Positions 7,831 to 36,794 of a stretch of DNA of 36,943 nucleotides are shown in pieces. A program made the position numbers and the translations under genes. This DNA is from an uncultured Duodenibacillus sp. GTDB lineage: Bacteria; Pseudomonadota; Gammaproteobacteria; Burkholderiales; Burkholderiaceae_F. Numbering within the stretch: the first letter of the stretch is position 1; every line of letters begins with the position of its first letter. The DNA lies in contig CALXKM010000006.1 of the NCBI GenBank assembly GCA_944388865.1, forward strand, positions 1 through 36,943, read 5' to 3'. The notes beneath the pieces were generated by a model. That model saw only the letters and a list, made by a program, of their open reading frames with translations. It had not been told where the DNA came from and did no database searches.

Positions 7831-9060
7831 ATGCGCCGTGTTGTTATCACCGGTTTGGGTTTGGTGACTCCCCTGGGTCTTGATGTTGCTTCGAGCTGGA
7901 AGGCTCTCTTAGAAGGCAAATGCGGCATCGGCCCGATTACACAGTTTGATGCTTCGGCCTTTGGCTGCAAGATTGCCGGCGAAGTCAAGGATTTTGATCC
8001 GACGGTGGCTATGCCTGCTAAGGACGCTCGCCGCTACGATCGCTTCGTGCAGTTTGCCGCAGTGGCGGGCGCCGAGGCTCTCAAGGATGCTGGCCTTGTG
8101 TTTGATACGGATGAAAAGGCCAACCGCGCGGGCTGCCTCATCGGCTCGGGCATCGGCGGCCTGAATTTGATTTGCGAAAACTTCCAGAGCTATCTGGAGC
8201 GCGGGCCGCGCCGCATTTCGCCCTTCATGATTCCGGGCTCGATCATCAATATGGCTAGCGGCATGCTCTCGATTCAGCACAACATGCGCGGCCCCAACCT
8301 CACGACGGTGACGGCCTGCTCGACGGGTCTGCACGCCATCGGCGAGGCAAGCTGGATGATTCGCCGCGGCGACGCCGACGTGATGCTCGCGGGCGGCACC
8401 GAAGGCACCGTGTGCCCCGACGGCATCGGCGGCTTTGACAGCATGCACGCTCTCTCGCGCAGAAACGACGATCCCGAGCATGCATCGCGTCCCTTTGACA
8501 TCGATCGCGACGGCTTCGTGATGGGCGAGGGTGCTGGTCTCGTCGTGCTTGAAGACTACGATCACGCCGTGGCGCGCGGCGCCAAGATCTACTGCGAAAT
8601 CGCTGGCTACGGGCTTTCGGCCGACGCCTACCACATCACGACGCCTTCGACCGACGGTCCGGTGCGCAGCATGCGCGTGGCGCTCGAGCACGCCGGCATG
8701 AAGCCCGAGGACATTGACTATCTCAACGCGCACGGCACATCTACCTCTGTGGGCGACATCAACGAGTGCAAGGCCATTCGCGGCGTCTTCGGTGACCATA
8801 CCGACAAGCTCGTGGTGAGTTCCACCAAGGGCGCAACCGGCCATTTGCTCGGCGGCGCAGGCGGCATCGAGAGCATCTTTACGATTCTTGCGATTCGCGA
8901 TCAAGTGGCGCCGCCCACGATCAACGTCGTCAACCAGGATCCCGAGTGCTGCGTCAATCTGGTTAAGGGAAGTCCGGTTGAGATGCCGATCAATGCCGCC
9001 ATGAAGAACAACTTCGGCTTTGGCGGCACCAATGCCACGCTGATTTTCAAGAAGCTCTAG
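7831..9060 (+). CDS. fabF: 3-oxoacyl-ACP synthase II (KAS II)
   Basis: Elongating condensing enzyme of type II fatty-acid synthesis. The protein is 409 residues. The catalytic residues are Cys163 in TACSTG, His301 in NAHGTSTS and His338 in GATGHLLGG. The FGFGGTNA motif near the C-terminus is kept. The reading frame is open further upstream, but that part overlaps the acpP terminator; the ATG at 7831 with AAAGGAC before it gives the standard start MRRVVITGLG. Confidence 0.97.
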   Translation: MRRVVITGLGLVTPLGLDVASSWKALLEGKCGIGPITQFDASAFGCKIAGEVKDFDPTVAMPAKDARRYDRFVQFAAVAGAEALKDAGLVFDTDEKANRAGCLIGSGIGGLNLICENFQSYLERGPRRISPFMIPGSIINMASGMLSIQHNMRGPNLTTVTACSTGLHAIGEASWMIRRGDADVMLAGGTEGTVCPDGIGGFDSMHALSRRNDDPEHASRPFDIDRDGFVMGEGAGLVVLEDYDHAVARGAKIYCEIAGYGLSADAYHITTPSTDGPVRSMRVALEHAGMKPEDIDYLNAHGTSTSVGDINECKAIRGVFGDHTDKLVVSSTKGATGHLLGGAGGIESIFTILAIRDQVAPPTINVVNQDPECCVNLVKGSPVEMPINAAMKNNFGFGGTNATLIFKKL

Positions 9061-9088
9061 GCCGCTTAAAAAGAGCTTTGGCACTGAG

Positions 9089-9139
9089 AAAGCCCGCTTG
9101 CCACGAGCGCGATGATTGCGTTTGGTGCTGCGGGCTTTT
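9089..9139 (+). terminator. Terminator after fabF
   Basis: AAAGCCCGC (9089-9097) pairs with GCGGGCTTT (9130-9138), and the T run of the right arm extends past the stem. The loop is long and partly self-paired. Confidence 0.75.
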
Positions 9140-9176
9140 TTGCGGCCGCAAGCCGATGAAAATCGCTGAAGGATTT

Positions 9177-9220
9177 CCAACTGAACAATTTCACCAAATT
9201 CCGGAAAATTGTTCAGTTGG
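9177..9220. repeat. 15-bp perfect inverted repeat, left boundary of the ATPase cassette
   Basis: CCAACTGAACAATTT (9177-9191) and its exact reverse complement (9206-9220) surround 14 bases. A further single TGAACAATTT copy lies at 9297-9306. The same sequence returns upstream of the ATPase at about 10745-10758, so matching arms bound a segment of about 1.58 kb. The rest of 9221-9408 shows no gene. Confidence 0.8.
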
Positions 9221-9408
9221 CTCGCTTGAGGCTTCTCTTGCGTTGATGCAGATCGAACTGTCGATGTGCGAAGCAAGGCATGCGGCACGCAAAAGGTGAA
9301 CAATTTCTGCCCAATGGACATCAGATTGCGTCAGGAACAACAACCTGCTCGCTCAGTCAGCAGGTCCCCAAAGCAAGAAAAAAAGGATGCCCAATTGACG
9401 GAATTTTC

Positions 9409-9485: not shown

Positions 9486-10670
9486 CTACAAAAAATCATC
9501 CATCAGGAGAAAATCTTTGAGCCTGATGTGCCGCACGGTGCTTGTGGAATAGTCAACATCGTCGTTGGTGATCAGAATTTTGGCGCGCGACTGATCCAGT
9601 CTGTTGAAAAGAGCAAATTCCCGGTCGTATGCTTTTTCGTCAGCGACGCTGTAGGCAACTTGAATCAGGTATTGGCGATTGGGTTTTTCAGCTAAAAAAT
9701 CGATCTCCAAGTCGTCTTTTCTAAAGACGGAAAGCTCATAGCCTCGGTAAAGAAGTTCGTTGAAAACAACATTTTCAAGATTGTGCGTTATATCCCAGCG
9801 GCCATTTGTCTGACGAATGCTGTTGAGTCCGACATCGGCGTTGTAGATTTTCTGGGTGTACTTCAGCTCTCGCTTGGCTTTTGTTGAAAACAGGCGCACC
9901 GTCGAAACTACGTAAGCCTCTTCGAGATAGTCAACGTACTTGAGAATGGTGTTGATCGAGCAGTCAAGTCCTTCGCTTTTTAGCGCTCTCAGCACGGCCC
10001 GCGCGCTGAAAACTCGAGCGTTTGACAGCAAAAGAAAGTTGACCAGTCGCCGAAAGATCGCTGTCTTTTTGATGCTGTATCTGCTTAAGATGTCGTTGAT
10101 GACGATGGTCTCGTCAAGGTCATTGAGATAGGCGAGCACGGCATCTTTGGAATTGAGCTCCAAAATCTGCGGAAAGCCGCCGAAAATCAAATATTCGCCG
10201 AGGCTATACGAACGCCCGAGCTCTGCGGCGTATTCCGTGAGCTCTTTGTATACGAACGGCCGAACTTGAAAGGCGACATAGCGACCTGACAATTCCTTGG
10301 CAAATTCGCTTGAGAGCAGCTTTGAGTTGCTGCCCGTAATGAAAAGAGAAACATTTTCAAGGCGCAGCGACCGGCAGGCGAGGTGCCATTGATCAACCAT
10401 TTGAACCTCGTCAAGAAAGACAAAGAGCTTGTCTTTGCCGGTGTGCTTTTGTACTTCCGCAACAAGATCGTCGGCCTTGGCAATTCTTGAGGAAACATCG
10501 CGCCGCTCAAAGTTAAGCTTAAGCGTGCGTCGTCCTTGGCTTTTGAGCTCCTCTTCGATCTGATCCATGAGCACGGATTTGCCGCAGCGGCGAATGCCGG
10601 TGATGATCTTGATGAGGTTGGATTCAAAGAAAGGTCTGATTTTCGAGATGTAGTGCTCTCTGGCAATCAT
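9486..10670 (-). CDS. AAA_14/DUF4143 family ATPase
   Basis: A 394-residue ATP-binding protein of the AAA_14 plus DUF4143 architecture, whose cellular role is not established. Walker A is GIRRCGKS at 25-32, Walker B is LFVFLDEVQ at 82-90, and LFITGSNSKLL at 109-119 is the sensor-like strand. The DUF4143 half follows from about residue 200. The C-terminus has EIDFLAEK then YLIQVAYS, the place of a PD-(D/E)xK-like core, with QVA instead of ExK. The start used is the ATG giving MIAREHYISKIRPF, the usual start of this clade; an in-frame TTG 19 codons upstream lies inside a palindrome and is unlikely. It stands alone and is bounded by TGAACAATTT inverted repeats. Confidence 0.88.
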   Translation of the reverse strand: MIAREHYISKIRPFFESNLIKIITGIRRCGKSVLMDQIEEELKSQGRRTLKLNFERRDVSSRIAKADDLVAEVQKHTGKDKLFVFLDEVQMVDQWHLACRSLRLENVSLFITGSNSKLLSSEFAKELSGRYVAFQVRPFVYKELTEYAAELGRSYSLGEYLIFGGFPQILELNSKDAVLAYLNDLDETIVINDILSRYSIKKTAIFRRLVNFLLLSNARVFSARAVLRALKSEGLDCSINTILKYVDYLEEAYVVSTVRLFSTKAKRELKYTQKIYNADVGLNSIRQTNGRWDITHNLENVVFNELLYRGYELSVFRKDDLEIDFLAEKPNRQYLIQVAYSVADEKAYDREFALFNRLDQSRAKILITNDDVDYSTSTVRHIRLKDFLLMDDFL

Positions 10671-10679
10671 GGCATCAAA

Positions 10680-10758
10680 CTGAACAGTTTTTCTGAAAAG
10701 ATGAAAATCTTTCACTGTAGTGAACAATTTTACTAAACCTAGAAAAATTGTTCAGTTG
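10680..10758 (-). promoter_or_regulatory. Operator-like repeat cluster upstream of the DUF4143 ATPase
   Basis: Three related arms lie within 80 bases of the ATPase start: ACTGAACAGTTTTT near 10679-10692, TGAACAATTTT at 10721-10731 and its inverse AAAATTGTTCA at 10744-10754. They overlap a second palindrome, TTCACT-GT-AGTGAA (10711-10724). Such stacked dyads next to a start site suggest binding by a dimeric or oligomeric protein, possibly the ATPase itself. Confidence 0.6.
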
Positions 10759-13528: not shown

Positions 13529-14740
13529 TCAGGCGCAGAGCGTTTCCGTGCGCAAGACGCTTGAATCGGAATAATCCCAGAAGAGAACCTGCGCCTGAGG
13601 CGAGACGATTGCTGCCTTTGCCAGAGATTTAAGCGACTTTGCCGCATGCAGCCGCTCCTTTTCATCGCGCACGAGAAAAAAAGCTGTTTTAAGGCCCTCA
13701 TTTTCGACCACGATCGGCGCCGTGATGCCGTTGGTGTCGACAAAATGCAGAAACCTCGCGCGCGGCAGCGCATCCTTGAGCGCCAAATACAAAGCGTTTT
13801 CAACGAGGGCGGCGGCAAAGTCTTCGGTTGGGTGAAGCATTGAATCAGCTAGCCACAGCGCTAGTCCCGGCGTCGTCCAGTAGAGCTTGGGCCGCAGCTT
13901 TGCGCGCCGCGGGGCAGGGGCTCTCAGGGGTTCGATGAGTTCGCACAGACCAATTGACTCGAGGTGCTTGGTCCAGTCGCGTGCCGTCGGCGCGGAAATT
14001 GAAGCCGCCTCGCCCGTCTTTGCCCAATTGAGTCCTTTTGAGGTTTGTCTTGCCAGAGCCTTCATATAGGAAAAAAAGCTCGAGCGGTCTCTAAGGCGAA
14101 GAGTTGGCGCAAGATCCTCAAACCATAGCTGCCTGAAGAAGTTTGTCCAAGCCTGTGCGGAAAATCGTTGTGATTGACTGCTTGTGCTGCCTGGCCCCGC
14201 GCCGTAGATGTCGGCAATCGACCGAACGGCACTGCCTTCATCGGCACAGGGATGAGCAAAGGCGAGCTCGCGCAAAACGAGGCCTGAGGCAGGATTTAAA
14301 GACGTGTTGGCTGCCGATCTTTGCGTTTCAATGTGTGCGGCAAGAGCGCGAAGGCCGGCGCCTTCATGAACCTCAACGGAGATTGACTGGGCTTTGGCGG
14401 CGTCGATCGTCTCAAGGAGCTTGCGTCGAGAAAAGCGCCCGCGTAAGCATAGATGCGCTTGGGGCTCAGCGTGCAGAAAGTCGAGCGCCTGCTCGAAAAA
14501 AGAGGGCGCCAGATGCACGTCGGCAATAACGAAGTCGCCTGCGTACTGATGCAGAAAGTCCTGCGGAGCGGCCTCGAAAAAACGCCAGGCGCGAATGTCT
14601 GAGAGCTCAACAGTCATTCGCGAGCTGTCTGCGACAGCATCTTGCAAAGGGCGGGCTTGATCAGCCCCTGCTTCAAGCGCTTCGATGACAAGGCGCGAAG
14701 AGGTGCTTTGCGGTGTATGTGAAAACGTGCTCTCAGTCAT
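13529..14740 (-). CDS. DUF4143-like protein with lost ATPase motifs
   Basis: A 403-residue protein that I read as a divergent AAA_14/DUF4143 relative. There is no Walker A anywhere. The Walker B position reads FVIADVHLAP (70-79), where active relatives have an IIDEIQxxP pattern, so the catalytic Asp-Glu are gone. HLCLRGRFSRRKLL (96-109) occupies the sensor strand. From about 197 to 300 the DUF4143 pattern is recognisable: FFRQLWFEDLAP, a winged-helix-like SISAPTARDWTKHLESIGL, and RPKLYWTTPGLALWL. The C-terminal nuclease-like core is also degenerate. The gene is intact and shares the base composition of core genes, so it may be domesticated rather than decaying. Function unknown. Confidence 0.6.
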   Translation of the reverse strand: MTESTFSHTPQSTSSRLVIEALEAGADQARPLQDAVADSSRMTVELSDIRAWRFFEAAPQDFLHQYAGDFVIADVHLAPSFFEQALDFLHAEPQAHLCLRGRFSRRKLLETIDAAKAQSISVEVHEGAGLRALAAHIETQRSAANTSLNPASGLVLRELAFAHPCADEGSAVRSIADIYGAGPGSTSSQSQRFSAQAWTNFFRQLWFEDLAPTLRLRDRSSFFSYMKALARQTSKGLNWAKTGEAASISAPTARDWTKHLESIGLCELIEPLRAPAPRRAKLRPKLYWTTPGLALWLADSMLHPTEDFAAALVENALYLALKDALPRARFLHFVDTNGITAPIVVENEGLKTAFFLVRDEKERLHAAKSLKSLAKAAIVSPQAQVLFWDYSDSSVLRTETLCA

Positions 14741-20617: not shown

Positions 20618-22090
20618 ATGCTCTGCGGCTACGCTCGTCTTGCCGAAAAATTCGGCTTGCATACGTTGACGCTTATTCAGCCAGCACAAGCAAGTTCAAG
20701 CGTCAGCAAGCTCATTCGTACGCAAGGCCAAATCCTTGTTCCTGTGCGCATGGCTCCTCTCGAAGACGACGTCTTCGGGCACCTTTCGTTTGCGATTAAG
20801 CACGAAGGCACCAATCTCGAAATTCTCTCGCAAGCTTTGCCCAAGATTGAGGCCGCCGTTTTGCAAGCAGCTGTTGATGCCGCGCCCAGCAGCGCCATTG
20901 CCAGAAAGCTTGCTTGGTTGTGGGAAGAATTTACGGCTCGAAGGCTGCGCTATGATCGTCCCGCAGGTGCTTACAGCCGCCTTTTTGATCCCAAGCTGTA
21001 TTTCACCGGACCCGAAGTTCAAATTCCGCGTTGGCGTGTGATCTACAACGGACTTGGGCCAATCTCGTATTGTCCTGTCGTACGCCGAGTTCCCGGGTTG
21101 TCCGAAGAAGAAATTTACGAGACCTTTGAGAAGCTTCATAAGCAAATGGCCTCAATTTCGCCGACACTGCTCAAGCGAGCCGTCGATTGGGCCTATTTGA
21201 GCGAAACTCGCAGTTCGTTTGCAATCGAAAAGGAGCCGCCTTCCGGGAGCAAAGCCCAGCGCTTCATGCAGCTGCTAAAGAACGTTGAGCTCTTCGAGCA
21301 CCTTGATGAGGACAAGCTCTGCGAAATACAAAACCGCATCGTGTCTTCGCCATTTTCTCAGGCTATGACATATCGCAGCGAGCAAAATTGGCTTTCCAAT
21401 TCAGGCGCATTCGGCGTACGCCGAGTTGCCTACCTTCCGCCGCCGCCCGAAATGCTCGAAGACTTGATGCATGGCTGGCTTGAGCTTGCCAATACGAAGG
21501 GCACGCAAATCAATCCGCTCATTGCAGCCAGCGCAGCGTCTTTTGGTTTTGTGTATCTGCACCCATTTTTAGACGGCAATGGACGCCTGAGCCGATTCCT
21601 TGTGCACCATCAGCTGCACAAGGCCAGGGCTTTGCCCGAGAAGCACGTTTTGCCCGTGTCGGCCGCCATGCTCAAGCACGAACACGCCTACCTTGATGCC
21701 TTGGAAGTTTTTTCAGCGCCTAGCCGCGATCTTTGGGACGTTCTGCAAATCGATAGAGACGATTACGTATTCACCTTCAAGGCAACGAGCGCCGTTTATC
21801 GATACTGGGACGCCACCAAACAAACGGAATTTCTGTTTGCCATGATTCGTGAGGCAATCAACACCTTCTTGCCTGAAGAGATCAACTTTTTGCAGAAATA
21901 CGATCGCGTGTATCGAGCAATGAACGAGCGTTTCGACATCGTTCAAAAGGACCTCGATGTGCTGGTCGCTGCAGGCATCGGCGCCGGACGCATATCCCAA
22001 AATTTGAAAAAGAAATATCAGTACCGAGTGCCTGCTGACTTTTTCGAAGCACTGGAAAGCGAATTGTCTGCCGAGCAAAAAGGCGGGTGA
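20618..22090 (+). CDS. Fic-domain protein (probable AMP-transferase)
   Basis: A 490-residue Fic protein expected to transfer AMP, or another nucleotide-derived group, to a target hydroxyl. The catalytic loop is HPFLDGNGRLSR at 315-326, matching HPFxxGNGRxxR in full, with catalytic His315. An N-terminal domain of the type seen in long Fic proteins (residues 1-150) precedes it, and a C-terminal helical region with a possible winged helix follows. An upstream segment SSFAIEKE (199-206) resembles the inhibitory (S/T)xxxE(G/N) motif with Glu204 in place but Lys205 at the Gly/Asn position. GAGGTC precedes the ATG. No antitoxin-like small gene is adjacent. The flanking repeats suggest tight regulation. 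Confidence 0.88.
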   Translation: MLCGYARLAEKFGLHTLTLIQPAQASSSVSKLIRTQGQILVPVRMAPLEDDVFGHLSFAIKHEGTNLEILSQALPKIEAAVLQAAVDAAPSSAIARKLAWLWEEFTARRLRYDRPAGAYSRLFDPKLYFTGPEVQIPRWRVIYNGLGPISYCPVVRRVPGLSEEEIYETFEKLHKQMASISPTLLKRAVDWAYLSETRSSFAIEKEPPSGSKAQRFMQLLKNVELFEHLDEDKLCEIQNRIVSSPFSQAMTYRSEQNWLSNSGAFGVRRVAYLPPPPEMLEDLMHGWLELANTKGTQINPLIAASAASFGFVYLHPFLDGNGRLSRFLVHHQLHKARALPEKHVLPVSAAMLKHEHAYLDALEVFSAPSRDLWDVLQIDRDDYVFTFKATSAVYRYWDATKQTEFLFAMIREAINTFLPEEINFLQKYDRVYRAMNERFDIVQKDLDVLVAAGIGAGRISQNLKKKYQYRVPADFFEALESELSAEQKGG

Positions 22091-22292
22091 TTCTTTTGGC
22101 GGTTTTTGCGCTGCGTTTGGCTGACTGCATTATTTCCTTTGCAGCGTTCGTGGCATGAGTTCCTCTCGACCCGTATGACAGACTGCAGCCTTTTCATCGC
22201 CGGGCGCAGAGTGGACTTTATTGCGGTGTGCCTGCAGGAGCGGGCGTTGTGTTCGCGACTGAAAAAAGAGGTGCAGCTATTTCATTATTGAT

Positions 22293-22318
22293 AAAAGCGT
22301 TTTGGACAAAAGTGTTTT
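22293..22318 (+). promoter_or_regulatory. Paired repeat upstream of the DUF234 ATPase relic
   Basis: AAAAGCGTTTT (22293-22303) and AAAAGTGTTTT (22308-22318) are 15 bases apart, followed by TATAAC (22322-22327). This may be the promoter/operator of the broken ATPase downstream. Confidence 0.4.
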
Positions 22319-22362
22319 CACTATAACGGAATCGGGATTTTTTGTCTTCAGGAATTTTTGCC

Positions 22363-23713
22363 ATGGTTTTTCCGTTTTATGACCGGTGCGATGAGTCCGA
22401 GTGGCTTCGAGAAAATCTGTATCAAGTTCTCAGCGACTGCAGCCGAATGCTGGTCATCACCGGCCGCAGACGCATCGGGAAAACGACGCTTGTCAATCAC
22501 GTTTTTGACGGCGGCAGCGTGCCTTATCTTTTTTTGTACGTCAACAAGGAAATGTTGCCGCTGGGAAATCTGCGAGCTTTTTGGGAAGACAATGCCGAAG
22601 CTCTCAAGCTGAAGGGGCTTGAGGCCGGCGCCAATTCCTTTGCTGCTCTTTTTGAGTTCTTGATGCAGCGCGCGGAGACTGAGCCTATGGTGCTTGTGAT
22701 CGACGAATTCCAAAATCTCGAGTCGCTTGAGCCTTCGTTTTTCGGCCAATTGCAAAAGTTCTGGGATCGCAGCCGCAAAAAGACGAAGATGCTGCTCATT
22801 CTGACGGGGTCGGCGGCTTCCATTTTTGACGGTTTCTGAGTTTGTGCCTTCGTATTCTGCTGATGACGTTTTTCGCGGGTATGCCGCATTGGGCGGCATA
22901 CCGTACTTCTGGCAAGGCGTCAATCCTCATCGTTCAATGACGGAAAACCTCGCCGTCAATATTCTGCGCTCAAACGGTTTTCTCAATGATGAGGCCCAAT
23001 CCGTATTGAGGCAGGAATTTCGTGATCCAGCTACCTACAACGCAATCCTTCAGTCGATTGCCTTCGGAGCAACCTCAAGAAGCGAGATTGCGCAGAAGAG
23101 TTTGGTGGATTCGCGTACGCTCTCAAAATACTTGACGGTGCTCGAAGATATGGATTTTGTCGTCAAGGAGCATCCGATTTTCGCAGGTGTGGAAGACTTG
23201 GAAAATGCTTCAAGAGGACTCTATCGGATTGCTGATCCGTACGTGAAATTCTGGTTTCGGTTTTTGGCCAGCAATTCGACTCTCATCATGACTCAGCAGG
23301 AAGCCATTTCTGAATGGGCCGCTGCTGTAGAGCCTTTCTTTGCAGATTTTGCAGCTGGAACTTTTGAGCAAGTTTGTCGCCAATATCTTACTAGACTGCA
23401 TTTTTCTGGAAAACTTCCGTTTCATTTAACGACTCTTGGGCGTTGGTGGCGAAATGGCACCGAGATCGATTTGGTTGGTGCGGATCACGATAGAAGGCAT
23501 TGCATTGCAGCTGAGTGCAAGTACCAAAATCAAAAAGTTTCAATAAGGGTTCTGCGCTCGCTTCAGGCCAAGTGCGAACAACTGCCTGTGGCAGAGGATG
23601 CCGTTTTTCATTACTGGATTTTTTCGCGCGTGGGATTTGACGATGCGCTCATCGATTTAGCCGCAAAAGATCCGTATCTGCACCTTGTCGGGATGAAGCA
23701 GCTGCTTGATTGA
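22363..23713 (+). pseudogene. Broken archaeal-type ATPase with DUF234 C-terminus
   Basis: Two reading frames together make one AAA ATPase of the DUF234 type. The first (22363-22839) has Walker A GRRRIGKTT at 34-42, Walker B MVLVIDEFQNLE at 109-120 and the sensor LILTGSA, then stops after SIFDGF. The second frame resumes at about 22829 with VSEFVPSYSADDVFRGYAAL. It runs to the normal C-terminal end and includes a winged helix (ATSRSEIAQKSLVD) and the DUF234 nuclease-like core (GTEIDLVG, then AAECKYQN). Relatives have about 25-30 residues between these points, containing a PLYGR-like segment; here they are missing and the frame changes. A deletion is therefore more likely than a simple sequencing slip. 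ATG 22363 has AGGA upstream. Confidence 0.8.
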
Positions 23714-23826
23714 GACTGTTGCGCAGGGAAGCGAACAAATGCATGCAGGAATAAACGGCGAGAAGGCGCGATGCCGATAGGAATTATGCTAAATGCCTTT
23801 TGGACACGACCGAAAATTCCTTTTGC
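23636..23826 (+). repeat. 191-bp direct repeat, copy 1
   Basis: This copy covers the last 25 codons of the DUF234 ATPase frame and about 115 bases beyond it. It matches 25692-25882 over 191 bases with no gaps and about 16 mismatches counted by eye (about 92% identity). The two copies flank the DUF4143 ATPase and the IS66-like remains. Confidence 0.9.
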
Positions 23827-23849
23827 GTTCACTCAAGGCCGTTTCATCT

Positions 23850-23968
23850 ACCCAAATCCGAGCTGGGTTTCATCGCGAGATTCGACACCTGCTCTGGTGG
23901 AAAAGGTTCTGGACGAAAAGCTATTCGTGCAATTTCTGTTGGCGATGGAGCAACAACAGCCATCATAG
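23850..23968 (+). pseudogene. Possible IS66 transposase fragment
   Basis: One frame reads STPALVEKVLDEKLFVQF and then AMEQQQ. This resembles the segment of IS66 transposases that precedes the LPLYRQE motif (pattern xTPALLxxVxxxKyxxxLPLYRxE), with decay. A tail-like piece of the same family may lie at 25589-25669. Support is by pattern only. Confidence 0.35.
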
Positions 23969-24091
23969 AACGCTACATCCAAAGCCAGAAACGGCCGCAT
24001 TGACATGCGGCAGACCGCTATCCATCCCCACGCGTGAGGAATTCCGCGGCGTTTCGTTAAAGCTCGTAAGCTGCGAAAAAAAAACTGATGT

Positions 24092-24229
24092 GCCAAACCG
24101 TGTGACAAATGACGGCCAAACCACGTGATAAAACTATGCCAAATCACGTGATAAAACTAAGCCAAATCTTGTGACGAAATCGCGCCGAACCGTATGATAA
24201 AATTCAGCCAAACCGTGTGACGCGCTCGT
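24092..24229 (+). repeat. Six-unit 23-bp tandem array upstream of the DUF4143 ATPase
   Basis: Six units start at 24092, 24115, 24138, 24161, 24184 and 24207, exactly 23 bases apart. The conserved part is GCCAAAYCRYGTGAYNAAA (unit 5 has GCCGAA and TATGAT); the last 4-5 bases of each unit vary. The units are contiguous and end 51 bases before the ATPase start, with no Shine-Dalgarno sequence after them. The same unit in the same orientation relative to the gene occurs at 36718-36794. The 23-bp period is two helical turns, as in iterons or multi-copy operators. Confidence 0.92.
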
Positions 24230-24279
24230 TGATCTTCGAGTAAGTCGTCTTTTGGGTCAAAAATATCAGACATCGAACT

Positions 24280-25557
24280 ATGACAACTTATCAACCGCGA
24301 ATTGTCGACGATCTTCTTCAGCGCAAGCTGCGCTCCATCGGCGCCGTGCTGATTCAAGGCCCCAAAGCCTGCGGCAAAACTACGACGGCCAAGCAATTTG
24401 CCAAGAGCTCTTTGCTGTTGAGTTCCGCTCAAACTCGGGAAACCGTTGCTGCAACACTCGATATGGCTCCCGATTTGGTTCTCAGCGGAGAGGTTCCGCG
24501 GCTCATTGACGAGTGGCAGACTATTCCTCGACTTTGGGACGAAGTCCGCTCTGAGCTCGATGAACGAGGAGATGTCGGACAATTCATTTTGACCGGATCT
24601 GCGGTACCGGTAGATCGAACTGAAATCTTTCACACGGGAACAGGCCGATTTGCATGGATCACGATGCGTCCGATGAGCCTCTATGAATTGGGCAAATCCA
24701 GTGGTGCCGTGAGTTTGTCGGCTTTATTTTCCGGCGAGCAAAGCGTTTTCGCGCCCAATCCACTCGGTTTAAAAGACGTTGCAGCTCTTGTTTGCCGCGG
24801 CGGATGGCCGCAATCGATGTTTCTTGAGCAAGAAGATGCGCAAGAATATGTTCGCTCGTATCTGGAAGCAGTGGTCAACAACGACGTTTCCCGAGTCGAC
24901 GGCATTCGACGAGACCCAGAACGCGTGCAAGCCATTCTTCGCGCGTGCGCCCGCTCTATCGGCAGCCAAGCTCCGCTTGCCCAACTGGAAAAAGATATCG
25001 AAGCCAACGAAGGCGGCAGTAATGTCAAGCTCTTTTCGATATCTACATACACAAAGGCGCTGAAAGAAATTTTTGTTCTTGAGGATATGCCGGCATGGAA
25101 TCCGAACCTGCGTTCCAAAACAGCAATCCGCACGACATCGACTCGTTACTTTGCCGATCCGTCGGTAGCGGCGGCGGCTCTTCGTATTGGCCCTCAAGAC
25201 CTCATAAACGACCTAAAGTCATTCGGCTTTTTCTTCGAAAATCTGTGCGTTCGCGATTTGCGCGCATACGCCGATGCCCTGCAGGCCGATGTCTTCCACT
25301 ACCGCGACAAAAACAATCTCGAATGCGATGCTGTGCTTCATCGCCGCGACGGAAGCTTCGGGCTGATCGAAATTAAGCTCGGTGGAAAAGACAACATCGA
25401 ATACGGTGCGACAACACTCAAAGCACTAGCCGCAAAGCTCGAACAAGGCGCAGTGCAAAAGCCGGCCTTTCTTATGGTTCTGATCGGCGCAGGCCAATAT
25501 GCCTATCGACGCGACGACGGAGTATTTGTGGTTCCGATCGGGTGTCTGCGCCATTAA
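24280..25557 (+). CDS. AAA_14/DUF4143 family ATPase with PD-(D/E)xK-like C-terminus
   Basis: A 425-residue intact ATPase. Walker A is GPKACGKT at 27-34, Walker B is PRLIDEWQ at 73-80 (IDEWQ in place of IDEIQ), and the sensor strand is FILTGSA at 102-108. The DUF4143 domain covers about 190-330, with a winged-helix-like part before EDMPAWNPNLRS. The C-terminus holds ECD (348-350) and IEIK (363-366), matching the PD-(D/E)xK nuclease-like core (Asp350, Glu364, Lys366) more fully than the ATPase at 9.5 kb. It is preceded by the 23-bp array and is the closest match to the relic at 36.6 kb. It lies between pieces of an IS66-like gene and between 191-bp repeats, so it probably arrived by insertion. 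Cellular role unknown. Confidence 0.9.
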   Translation: MTTYQPRIVDDLLQRKLRSIGAVLIQGPKACGKTTTAKQFAKSSLLLSSAQTRETVAATLDMAPDLVLSGEVPRLIDEWQTIPRLWDEVRSELDERGDVGQFILTGSAVPVDRTEIFHTGTGRFAWITMRPMSLYELGKSSGAVSLSALFSGEQSVFAPNPLGLKDVAALVCRGGWPQSMFLEQEDAQEYVRSYLEAVVNNDVSRVDGIRRDPERVQAILRACARSIGSQAPLAQLEKDIEANEGGSNVKLFSISTYTKALKEIFVLEDMPAWNPNLRSKTAIRTTSTRYFADPSVAAAALRIGPQDLINDLKSFGFFFENLCVRDLRAYADALQADVFHYRDKNNLECDAVLHRRDGSFGLIEIKLGGKDNIEYGATTLKALAAKLEQGAVQKPAFLMVLIGAGQYAYRRDDGVFVVPIGCLRH

Positions 25558-25588
25558 TCGGCACGAACGACCAGCAATTCGGAAAGCG

Positions 25589-25669
25589 ATGAGCTTGACG
25601 CAAACAGCAAAGGCCAACGGCACCAACAACGTGATTGAATGGCTGACGGAATACTCAAAGGCATACTAA
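25589..25669 (+). pseudogene. Possible IS66 transposase C-terminal remnant
   Basis: The frame reads MSLTQTAKANG and then an EWLTEYSKAY ending before TAA. The TAKANG pattern followed by an aromatic-rich helix is a hallmark of IS66 transposase C-termini. Only this tail remains, between the intact ATPase and the second 191-bp repeat. Confidence 0.4.
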
Positions 25670-25691
25670 CTGCATCGGGCAAGCAACACGG

Positions 25692-25882
25692 TTTGACGAT
25701 GCGCTCATCGATTTAGCCGCAAAAGATCCTCATCTGCACCTTGTCGGGATGCAGCAGCTGCTTGATTGAGACTGTTGCGAAGGACAGCGAACAAATGCAT
25801 GCAGGAATAAACTGCGGGAAGGCGCGATGCCGATAGGAATTGTGAGAAATGCTTTTTTGACAAGATCGGAAATTCCTTTTGC
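25692..25882 (+). repeat. 191-bp direct repeat, copy 2
   Basis: The second copy of the segment at 23636-23826. It contains the last codons of a DUF234 ATPase, ending HLVGMQQLLD and stop, without the rest of the gene. It looks like the scar of a second ATPase copy or of a segmental duplication. Confidence 0.9.
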
Positions 25883-25996
25883 CGGCTACGCTTACAACCA
25901 AAATAAGACCGTATTCCTGATTTCGTATAGGAGGCGGATGCCGGCTTGCTGGGTTGTTGGATGCCGCAACGATGTTCTGACGAGCAGCGTTCTTGG

Positions 25997-26440
25997 TTAA
26001 GACAGGCGCATGTACAAAAGCGGATAAGGATGGCCTTGTTCATCAAGAGGCGTACGCTTGTAGGTCTTAAAGCCCATATGCGCATAAAAGCCCACGGCGC
26101 GGGGATTTTGTTCGTTGACGGTCACCTCGGTGATGTTTCCGCTTGCCGAAACGTACTGCAGGAGTGCTTTTCCGATGCCTTTTGAGCGCATCTCGGGAGC
26201 AACAAAGAGCATTTCGATGCGAGAGCCGCTTGTTCCGATAAAACCGACAGGAGTGCCGGAGTTGTCCGTTGCGACCGTAAGATGCGGCACCTGACGCAAA
26301 GCTTGCGGGACATATTTTTTGATTTCAGCGATTTCCTGCTCAGACAAAAAATCGTGCGTTGCGCGCACGCTTTGCTCCCAGAGGTTTGTGAGCTCGAAAA
26401 CGACAGCTTGAGTGCGGTCAGTGACGTCAATGATCTGCAT
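25997..26440 (-). CDS. yjaB: GNAT acetyltransferase, YjaB-like
   Basis: A 147-residue GNAT-fold enzyme that uses acetyl-CoA to acetylate an unknown amine. The cofactor loop is RSKGIG within FVAPEMRSKGIGKALL. The order of motifs agrees with E. coli YjaB as I recall it: WEQSVRATHDFL near the N-terminus, VNEQNPRAVGFYAHMGF, and a final GHPYPLL. Length is the same as YjaB. It is transcribed alone on the minus strand at the right edge of the accessory patch. The physiological substrate is not known. Confidence 0.85.
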   Translation of the reverse strand: MQIIDVTDRTQAVVFELTNLWEQSVRATHDFLSEQEIAEIKKYVPQALRQVPHLTVATDNSGTPVGFIGTSGSRIEMLFVAPEMRSKGIGKALLQYVSASGNITEVTVNEQNPRAVGFYAHMGFKTYKRTPLDEQGHPYPLLYMRLS

Positions 26441-36501: not shown

Positions 36502-36708
36502 TTATTTGAGCACAACCGTGCCAAGCGATGCCTCTGCTGCAATGGATGGATCTCCTCAAAGCAGCGCGCAGCAGATGTAACGAATAGCCGTTTGGGATCG
36601 AAGATTCGGATTCCAAGCAGACAGATCTTCAATAACAAAAATTAGCCGAAGCGCATTGAGATGAGAAGCGACTGTCTTTTCGGTTGTCGGCTGTCCGATG
36701 TCCTTGGC
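36502..36708 (-). pseudogene. DUF4143 ATPase remnant
   Basis: On the minus strand one frame reads AKDIGQPTTEKTVASHLNAL, continuing RLIFVIEDL then SAWNPNLRSQTAIR. This matches the intact ATPase at 24.3 kb (IFVLEDM, PAWNPNLRSKTAIR) nearly residue for residue. After a frame change it continues with DPSIAAEASLGT (intact gene DPSVAAAALRIG) and stops. The ATPase half and the last third of the gene are gone. The remnant begins directly beside the 23-bp repeats found also before the intact copy. Confidence 0.8.
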
Positions 36709-36717
36709 TTAAACCCA

Positions 36718-36794
36718 AGTTTGGCGTGAATTCATTTTCTGATTCGGTTGAAATCTATTACCAGATTTGGCCGAAAAGGAAGACGTGATTTGGC
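36718..36794 (-). repeat. Four-unit 23-bp array, second locus
   Basis: Units begin (plus strand) at 36718, 36741, 36764 and 36787, exactly 23 bases apart. Their cores are AGTTTGGC, GATTCGGT, GATTTGGC and GATTTGGC. Read on the minus strand they give GCCAAATCACGT and variants, the same unit and orientation relative to the ATPase remnant as at 24092-24229. The space between units is more diverged than in the first array. Confidence 0.85.

Follow-up and report, generated by a model that had tools for sequence, protein, structure and literature searches.

A 23-bp tandem array with a gene-specific centre precedes a DUF4143 ATPase gene and its close homologues: a candidate autoregulatory operator

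A tandem array of six 23-bp units lies directly upstream of the gene for an AAA_14/DUF4143 ATPase in an uncultured Duodenibacillus sp., and comparable arrays precede nearly all close homologues of this gene. The array was analysed in a stretch of 36,943 nucleotides (contig CALXKM010000006.1), referred to here as the window. The array itself, its period, the privacy of its variable centre (the barcode), its phasing to predicted promoters and its covariation with the ATPase can be read directly from the compared sequences. The best reading of these features, and one that we hold to be probable, is that the ATPase is a PDC-S01 defence candidate that regulates its own gene by binding a private operator array.

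A six-unit array precedes an intact AAA_14/DUF4143 ATPase gene

The array occupies positions 24092-24229 of the plus strand, ends 50 bp before the start codon of the ATPase gene and is read here as a putative operator. Its units start at 24092, 24115, 24138, 24161, 24184 and 24207, in exact 23-bp steps. The core GCCAAAYCRYGTGA is matched perfectly by four of the six units, with one mismatch in one of the remaining units and two in the other, and Tandem Repeats Finder called the array independently (period 23, 5.6 copies). A scan of the 2.49-Mb assembly found zero exact core sites outside the intact array and, with one mismatch allowed, eight scattered single sites. The exact core is confined to the intact array within the assembly and any action on it is therefore expected in cis. 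A promoter-like site, TTGTGA-18-TATGAT (24169-24198, plus strand), is weakly predicted within units 4-5; a second reading of its -35 box uses the same -10 box, which starts 32 bp downstream of the beginning of unit 4.

The gene (24280-25557, plus strand) encodes a 425 aa protein that matches the Pfam families AAA_14 (54.2 bits, cut-off 27) and DUF4143 (106.8 bits, cut-off 28.1) and the PADLOC profile PDC-S01 (1.2e-64). The coordinates, steps and domains thus bear out the first-pass annotation, which had described six in-register 23-bp units before an intact ATPase of this type. An AAA domain (residues ~1-204) is followed by a winged helix (~205-292) and a PD-(D/E)XK-type domain (~305-425). Eleven residues (G27, K29, G32, K33, T34, D77, E78, E320, D350, E364 and K366), which we take to be Walker motifs and PD-(D/E)XK-type residues, are invariant in an alignment of 75 sequences. 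This alignment contains the window protein and the proteins of 74 of 80 homologous loci; two loci near contig ends (L137, L194) and one with a stop (L201) were left out, as were L144, L200 and L178. Fold matches of the window ATPase include Cdc6/Orc1 chains as well as the archaeal ATPases 2qen and 2fna (SSO1545), CED-4 and NLR proteins, and the resemblance to the latter group is limited to the N-terminal part. We know of no array of this kind for 2qen, 2fna, CED-4 or NLR proteins.

Three single-gene PADLOC candidates follow one another at 20618-25557: an intact Fic gene (20618-22090, PDC-S24), a DUF234/ATPase_2 gene broken into two frames (22342-23713, PDC-S27 on the second piece) and the ATPase gene. 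According to the available text of PMC12988326, PDC-S01 consists of an ATPase fused to a PD-(D/E)XK member and ranks fourth by frequency among prokaryotic defences, experimental validation still being pending for most such candidates. In one paper's table, the Thermus DUF4143 gene TT_P0211 is listed as differentially expressed in a plasmid-containing strain.

Periodic arrays accompany close homologues across phyla

To determine how widespread the array is, we scored upstream periodicity at homologous loci. Among 78 testable close-homologue loci (the best 80 of at least 584 relatives in named genomes, minus two with short upstream DNA), 76 carry a periodic array (score 14 or higher), 23 being the best lag in 73. 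The array-bearing homologues span Bacteroidota, Bacillota, Spirochaetota and others. A search for further paralogues in 34 of the same genomes added arrays in 28 of 29 new rows (62 of 64 rows score at least 14, 35 of the rows repeating earlier loci), and a later set of loci from other genomes, covering rows having a locus, gave 74 of 76 (80 rows, four of them too short upstream). Arrays with a period of 22 or 23 bp and motifs of their own were also present at every one of seven plasmid-borne relatives, chosen from 283 records at 27-54% identity, and two same-genus homologues (56-57% identity) have 23-bp arrays whose cores differ. The proposal that repeat and gene travel together holds throughout these sets.

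In the family of the host the picture is more mixed. Among 95 DUF4143 matches listed, 94 ORFs were found and 91 had enough upstream DNA. The periodicity score reaches at least 18 in 33 of these 91 ORFs compared to 26 of 642 control ORFs on the same contigs, at least four of the 26 being neighbours that share score and lag with a case. Lag 23 accounts for 10 of the 33 hits and two of the 26 controls, and lags 30-33 for 18 and seven, respectively, revealing a second array period near 32 bp. An upstream repeat was therefore found for part of the host-family genes, the rest scoring below 18, and the array is common, not universal, among them at the sensitivity used. Array periods cluster on the DUF4143 protein tree. 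A DUF4143 protein encoded in the window at 13529-14740, in which no AAA_14 domain was detected, sits on a very long branch of this tree.

Rampant transfer between phyla, suggested by identities of 50-59% across phyla, was considered and rejected: the protein tree follows phyla, with 11 label changes versus 31.9 after shuffling. Scanning genome contigs for an exact two-unit pattern returned no match because the barcode used was too specific, and a scan of viral contigs with two peptides found no relative of the ATPase. Phage records contain eight relatives, every one of them in an unannotated human faecal record.

The variable centre of the unit is private to each gene

The profile of the 78 arrays reads approximately GCCAA, a variable stretch, C.GAA and an A-rich tail, the CCAA...GAA frame and the period being kept. 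Within arrays, columns 6-12 agree at 0.75-0.94. Between arrays, agreement falls to 0.26-0.51 in columns 6-9 and 11-12, with column 10 at 0.70. An identical seven-base centre occurs in none of 47 within-genome pairs and in 53 of 4706 between-genome pairs. The barcode is common to the units of one array and differs from array to array, also among the paralogues of a single genome. Active avoidance of similar barcodes within a genome was also considered; centres differing by at most one base make up two of 47 within-genome and 243 of 4706 between-genome pairs, and this idea was dropped. Privacy appears instead to arise by divergence. At one locus (L247, G102:C61:172200-176000) the arrays of two tandem ATPase genes differ, yet the early units of one are similar to a unit of the other, which looks as if a barcode had been caught while changing. 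Taken at face value, the barcodes resemble a naturally occurring collection of orthogonal operator-regulator pairs.

Arrays are helically phased to predicted promoters

For 71 of the 78 loci, a -10 box, or a -7 box in Bacteroidota, could be assigned on the downstream side of the last unit. In 59 of these 71 predicted promoters the distance from the last unit to the box falls into one of four classes, 21-22, 30-31, 41-43 or 51-55 bp. The distances are helically phased (resultant 0.69 at 10.5 bp) and their 24 distinct values are non-uniform (p 5e-5 versus a uniform null; 67 of the 71 distances entered this test and phylum labels were assigned by hand). Tandem sites thus lie at the gene's own predicted promoter, in an arrangement typical of direct-repeat operators. 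MalT-type STAND activators and iteron initiators are likewise ATPases or winged-helix proteins that act on tandem, helically arranged sites; to our knowledge, both are without a PD-(D/E)XK domain and without a barcode private to each gene copy.

The same geometry bears on two other readings of the array. Replication-type iterons, with the array and the AAA/winged-helix protein representing the initiator-origin pair of a former replicon, would agree with tandem 22-23 bp sites beside the protein's own gene, with the Cdc6/Orc1 chains among the fold matches and with the relatives in 283 plasmid records. However, the array is phased to a predicted promoter and a Pfam search of the window ATPase (P0001) found no Rep family, making such an origin highly improbable. 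An RNA-level element, either an attenuator or a small-RNA array, would likewise place tandem repeats before a gene, but wherever a promoter was called in the homologues, the units precede the predicted -10 or -7 box, the box having been sought downstream, and no Rfam match was found in 22200-26000. A CRISPR or RNA reading was rejected on the latter result, and we consider an RNA-level function scarcely credible.

The relative position of units and boxes also provides indications for the sign of the presumed regulation. A TTG-type -35 box overlaps the end of a unit in 14 of the 16 listed promoters with a spacing near 42, so that these promoters look intrinsically good. A -10-like hexamer is found inside the array in 22 of 27 period-32 arrays, a raw count without a chance expectation, and several of these hexamers sit in a palindromic unit as read by eye. 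The -35 overlap combined with the hexamers inside arrays would favour repression. In Bacteroidota, the last unit is located 51-55 bp before the -7 box in 22 of 40 predicted promoters, and sites 51-55 bp upstream are more usual for activators. This class fits activation as well, so that repression is no more than the sign to which we lean.

The barcode covaries with the ATPase

To identify the part of the protein that might read the array, we compared barcodes and protein sequences in 98 protein-array pairs. This set gained 23 of the 64 paralogue rows, 33 being repeats of proteins already included and eight having motifs too far from the profile. The partial correlation with barcode distance is 0.133 for the winged helix, -0.007 for the AAA domain and -0.055 for the nuclease domain; these correlations are small, and in 199 of 200 subsamples the winged helix gives the top value. 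It also holds nine of the 20 best columns against the whole barcode (p 0.017), columns 347, 383, 139 and 125 outside it ranking high as well. At the level of single base-residue pairs, however, no more than 16 of the top 50 fall in it, compared to a background of 23%.

Two residues stand out as predicted contacts. Residue 252 is the second residue of helix 251-263, the predicted recognition helix. D or E at this position occurs with G12 in 59 of 70 cases and other residues in five of 28. Independent pairs for residue 252 and base 12 are concordant in 6.8 and opposite in 0.02 cases (median sign-test p 0.016), the best of 219 columns. The strongest of all single base-residue couplings link base 2 and base 1 to residue 344, which belongs to the nuclease-like domain. 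K or R at 344 is found with C2 in 71 of 73 cases and other residues in three of 25; of five supported independent pairs, 4.0 are concordant and none opposed on average (median p 0.125).

Both associations recur in held-out loci with kinship ignored (58 of 76 loci, 18 having been dropped for weak profile matches): 252 with G12 in 12 of 16 versus 10 of 42 (p 6e-4) and 344 with C2 in 46 of 52 versus none of six (p 2e-5), the value for residue 344 and base 1 being p 0.057. Fourteen of the 58 held-out proteins share more than 80% identity with a training protein. When these near-relatives are removed, the association of 344 with C2 holds (36 of 40 versus none of four, p 5e-4) while that of 252 with G12 keeps its direction and loses significance (five of eight versus nine of 36, p 0.09), and the predicted residue-344 contact is therefore better supported than the residue-252 contact. 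The relatives G001 and G004 obey the residue-252 rule; G059, with K252 and G12, is an exception. Two further candidates were discarded. D versus E at residue 252 is associated with base 11 in the raw data, yet independent pairs split 1.3 versus 1.2, and residue 211, the top single column against the whole barcode, reaches 1.2 versus 0.2 of three independent pairs with base 7. Overall, the link between protein and array is well supported by sequence comparison, and the covariation strengthens the earlier suggestion that the ATPase itself may bind the array.

Direct repeats can also be read by a dedicated regulator. In the available text of PMC12255303, RptR, a small protein regulating a restriction-modification/DarTG2 defence island, represses that island by binding three direct repeats in its promoter, its site being a 6-bp palindrome. 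RptR may thus serve as an earlier example of a defence island controlled through direct repeats, though by a separate protein. The array studied here resembles this case in its direct repeats at the predicted promoter of a defence-candidate gene and differs in that regulator binding is predicted, the presumed effector is the reader, the period is fixed at 23 bp and each gene has its own barcode. If the array were similarly bound by another regulator, its link to the ATPase would be merely genetic. However, the barcode covaries with the ATPase and the barcodes of paralogues differ within a genome (zero of 47 pairs identical), which would demand one regulator for each paralogue. We judge a separate regulator unlikely.

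A decayed second locus and the flanks of the array-ATPase cassette

A degenerate array of four units (36703-36794, minus strand; unit starts 36794, 36771, 36748 and 36725) was located by block score. It scores +36.3, compared to a mean of approximately -67 (sd 13.4) and to -14.9 (minus strand) and -10.9 (plus strand) for the best blocks clear of both arrays, and represents the top four-unit block of the window outside the intact array. Downstream of it lies the remnant of a related ATPase gene (36529-36690, minus strand), which corresponds to residues 248-300 of P0001 at 47% identity with one in-frame stop. The second locus described by the first-pass annotation thus exists, with four units at exact 23-bp steps, ~12.5 kb from the intact array and beside an ATPase remnant. 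The identity of 47% and the single stop point to a diverged relative as its source and not to a recent copy of the intact gene. The orientation, given as the same, is opposite within the window and the same relative to each array's own gene.

The array-ATPase cassette (23827-25691) is flanked by a 191-bp direct repeat (23636-23826 and 25692-25882, 92% identical) that holds the 3' end of the DUF234 ATPase gene. At the right junction of the cassette, a unit-like sequence with three mismatches is present in inverse orientation (25684-25697, minus strand). Repeat and junction unit represent either an insertion scar or chance.

These flanks are relevant to a mobile or homing module, in which a nuclease would recognise array-like sites and the array-gene cassette would move or copy itself there. 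Several observations are compatible with homing: the PD-(D/E)XK-type residues do not vary across 75 sequences, the genome contains decayed relatives, the duplicated end of the neighbouring DUF234 gene surrounds the cassette, and a single inverted unit-like sequence lies at its junction. Against it, arrays hold promoter-proximal, helically phased positions, the protein tree follows phyla, and a scan of the cassette for inverted repeats found short weak pairs only. In addition, at the three mismatches of the junction match the window has 31 hits compared to 36.9 in shuffles. Homing is consequently an unlikely explanation. Of the proposed functions as a defence, addiction or mobile module, the status of a defence candidate is backed by the PDC-S01 match, whereas mobility is hinted at by the flanking 191-bp duplication alone.

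Other DUF4143 genes of the host show upstream elements of different kinds. One 38-bp palindrome-like element occurs at two sites in the window (9178-9219 and 10721-10758), at the start of another DUF4143 ATPase gene (9486-10727, minus strand) and near the start of the adjacent gene (7909-9321, minus strand), which has no Pfam family. The element is placed as if a single operator served both genes. By eye, four other DUF4143 genes of the host (L002, L004, L005 and L007) have a distal TGTCAAC/ATCAGG-type block in common and differ in their promoter-proximal elements; the distal block is possibly a second, common control layer.

A model for autoregulation by a private operator array

In autoregulation by a private array, the reading that we favour, the array would act as an operator and the ATPase itself would bind the 23-bp units. 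The winged helix would read the variable centre while a loop near residue 344, part of the nuclease-like domain, would touch the first bases of the unit. Several protomers would align on neighbouring units, roughly on one helix face, beside or across their own promoter, and would in this position set transcription of their own ATPase gene. The private barcode of each gene would change with its reader, allowing many ATPase paralogues to share one genome. We incline towards autorepression of a promoter that is good in itself; repression would be lifted once the ATPase is occupied at another site, for which invading DNA would be responsible in the case of a defence protein.

A literature search on DUF4143, COG1373, PDC-S01 and repeat-linked autoregulation found no such array, preprints and most subscription papers lying outside its coverage. 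PDC-S01 comprises the same protein family as the window ATPase (AAA_14-DUF4143), and the operator array and barcode described here are absent from the published descriptions found, as far as the available text of PMC12988326 extends.

A bolder extension, which we put forward tentatively, views these proteins as self-addressed immune ATPases. The array might then serve as a platform for loading, on which an ATPase-nuclease oligomer, inactive or poised, is kept at its own promoter, and a legible protein-DNA code (winged-helix residue 252/base 12 and nuclease-domain residue 344/base 2) might let genomes stack many orthogonal copies. If this were true, a single protein would, on leaving the array, link the sensing of its target to nuclease activity and to induction. 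The conserved cis-element and the two predicted contact residues offer a direct handle on the target of the ATPase, on the place where it binds and on its possible switching. Should the effector regulate itself, promoter DNA alone could suffice to tell its copies apart.
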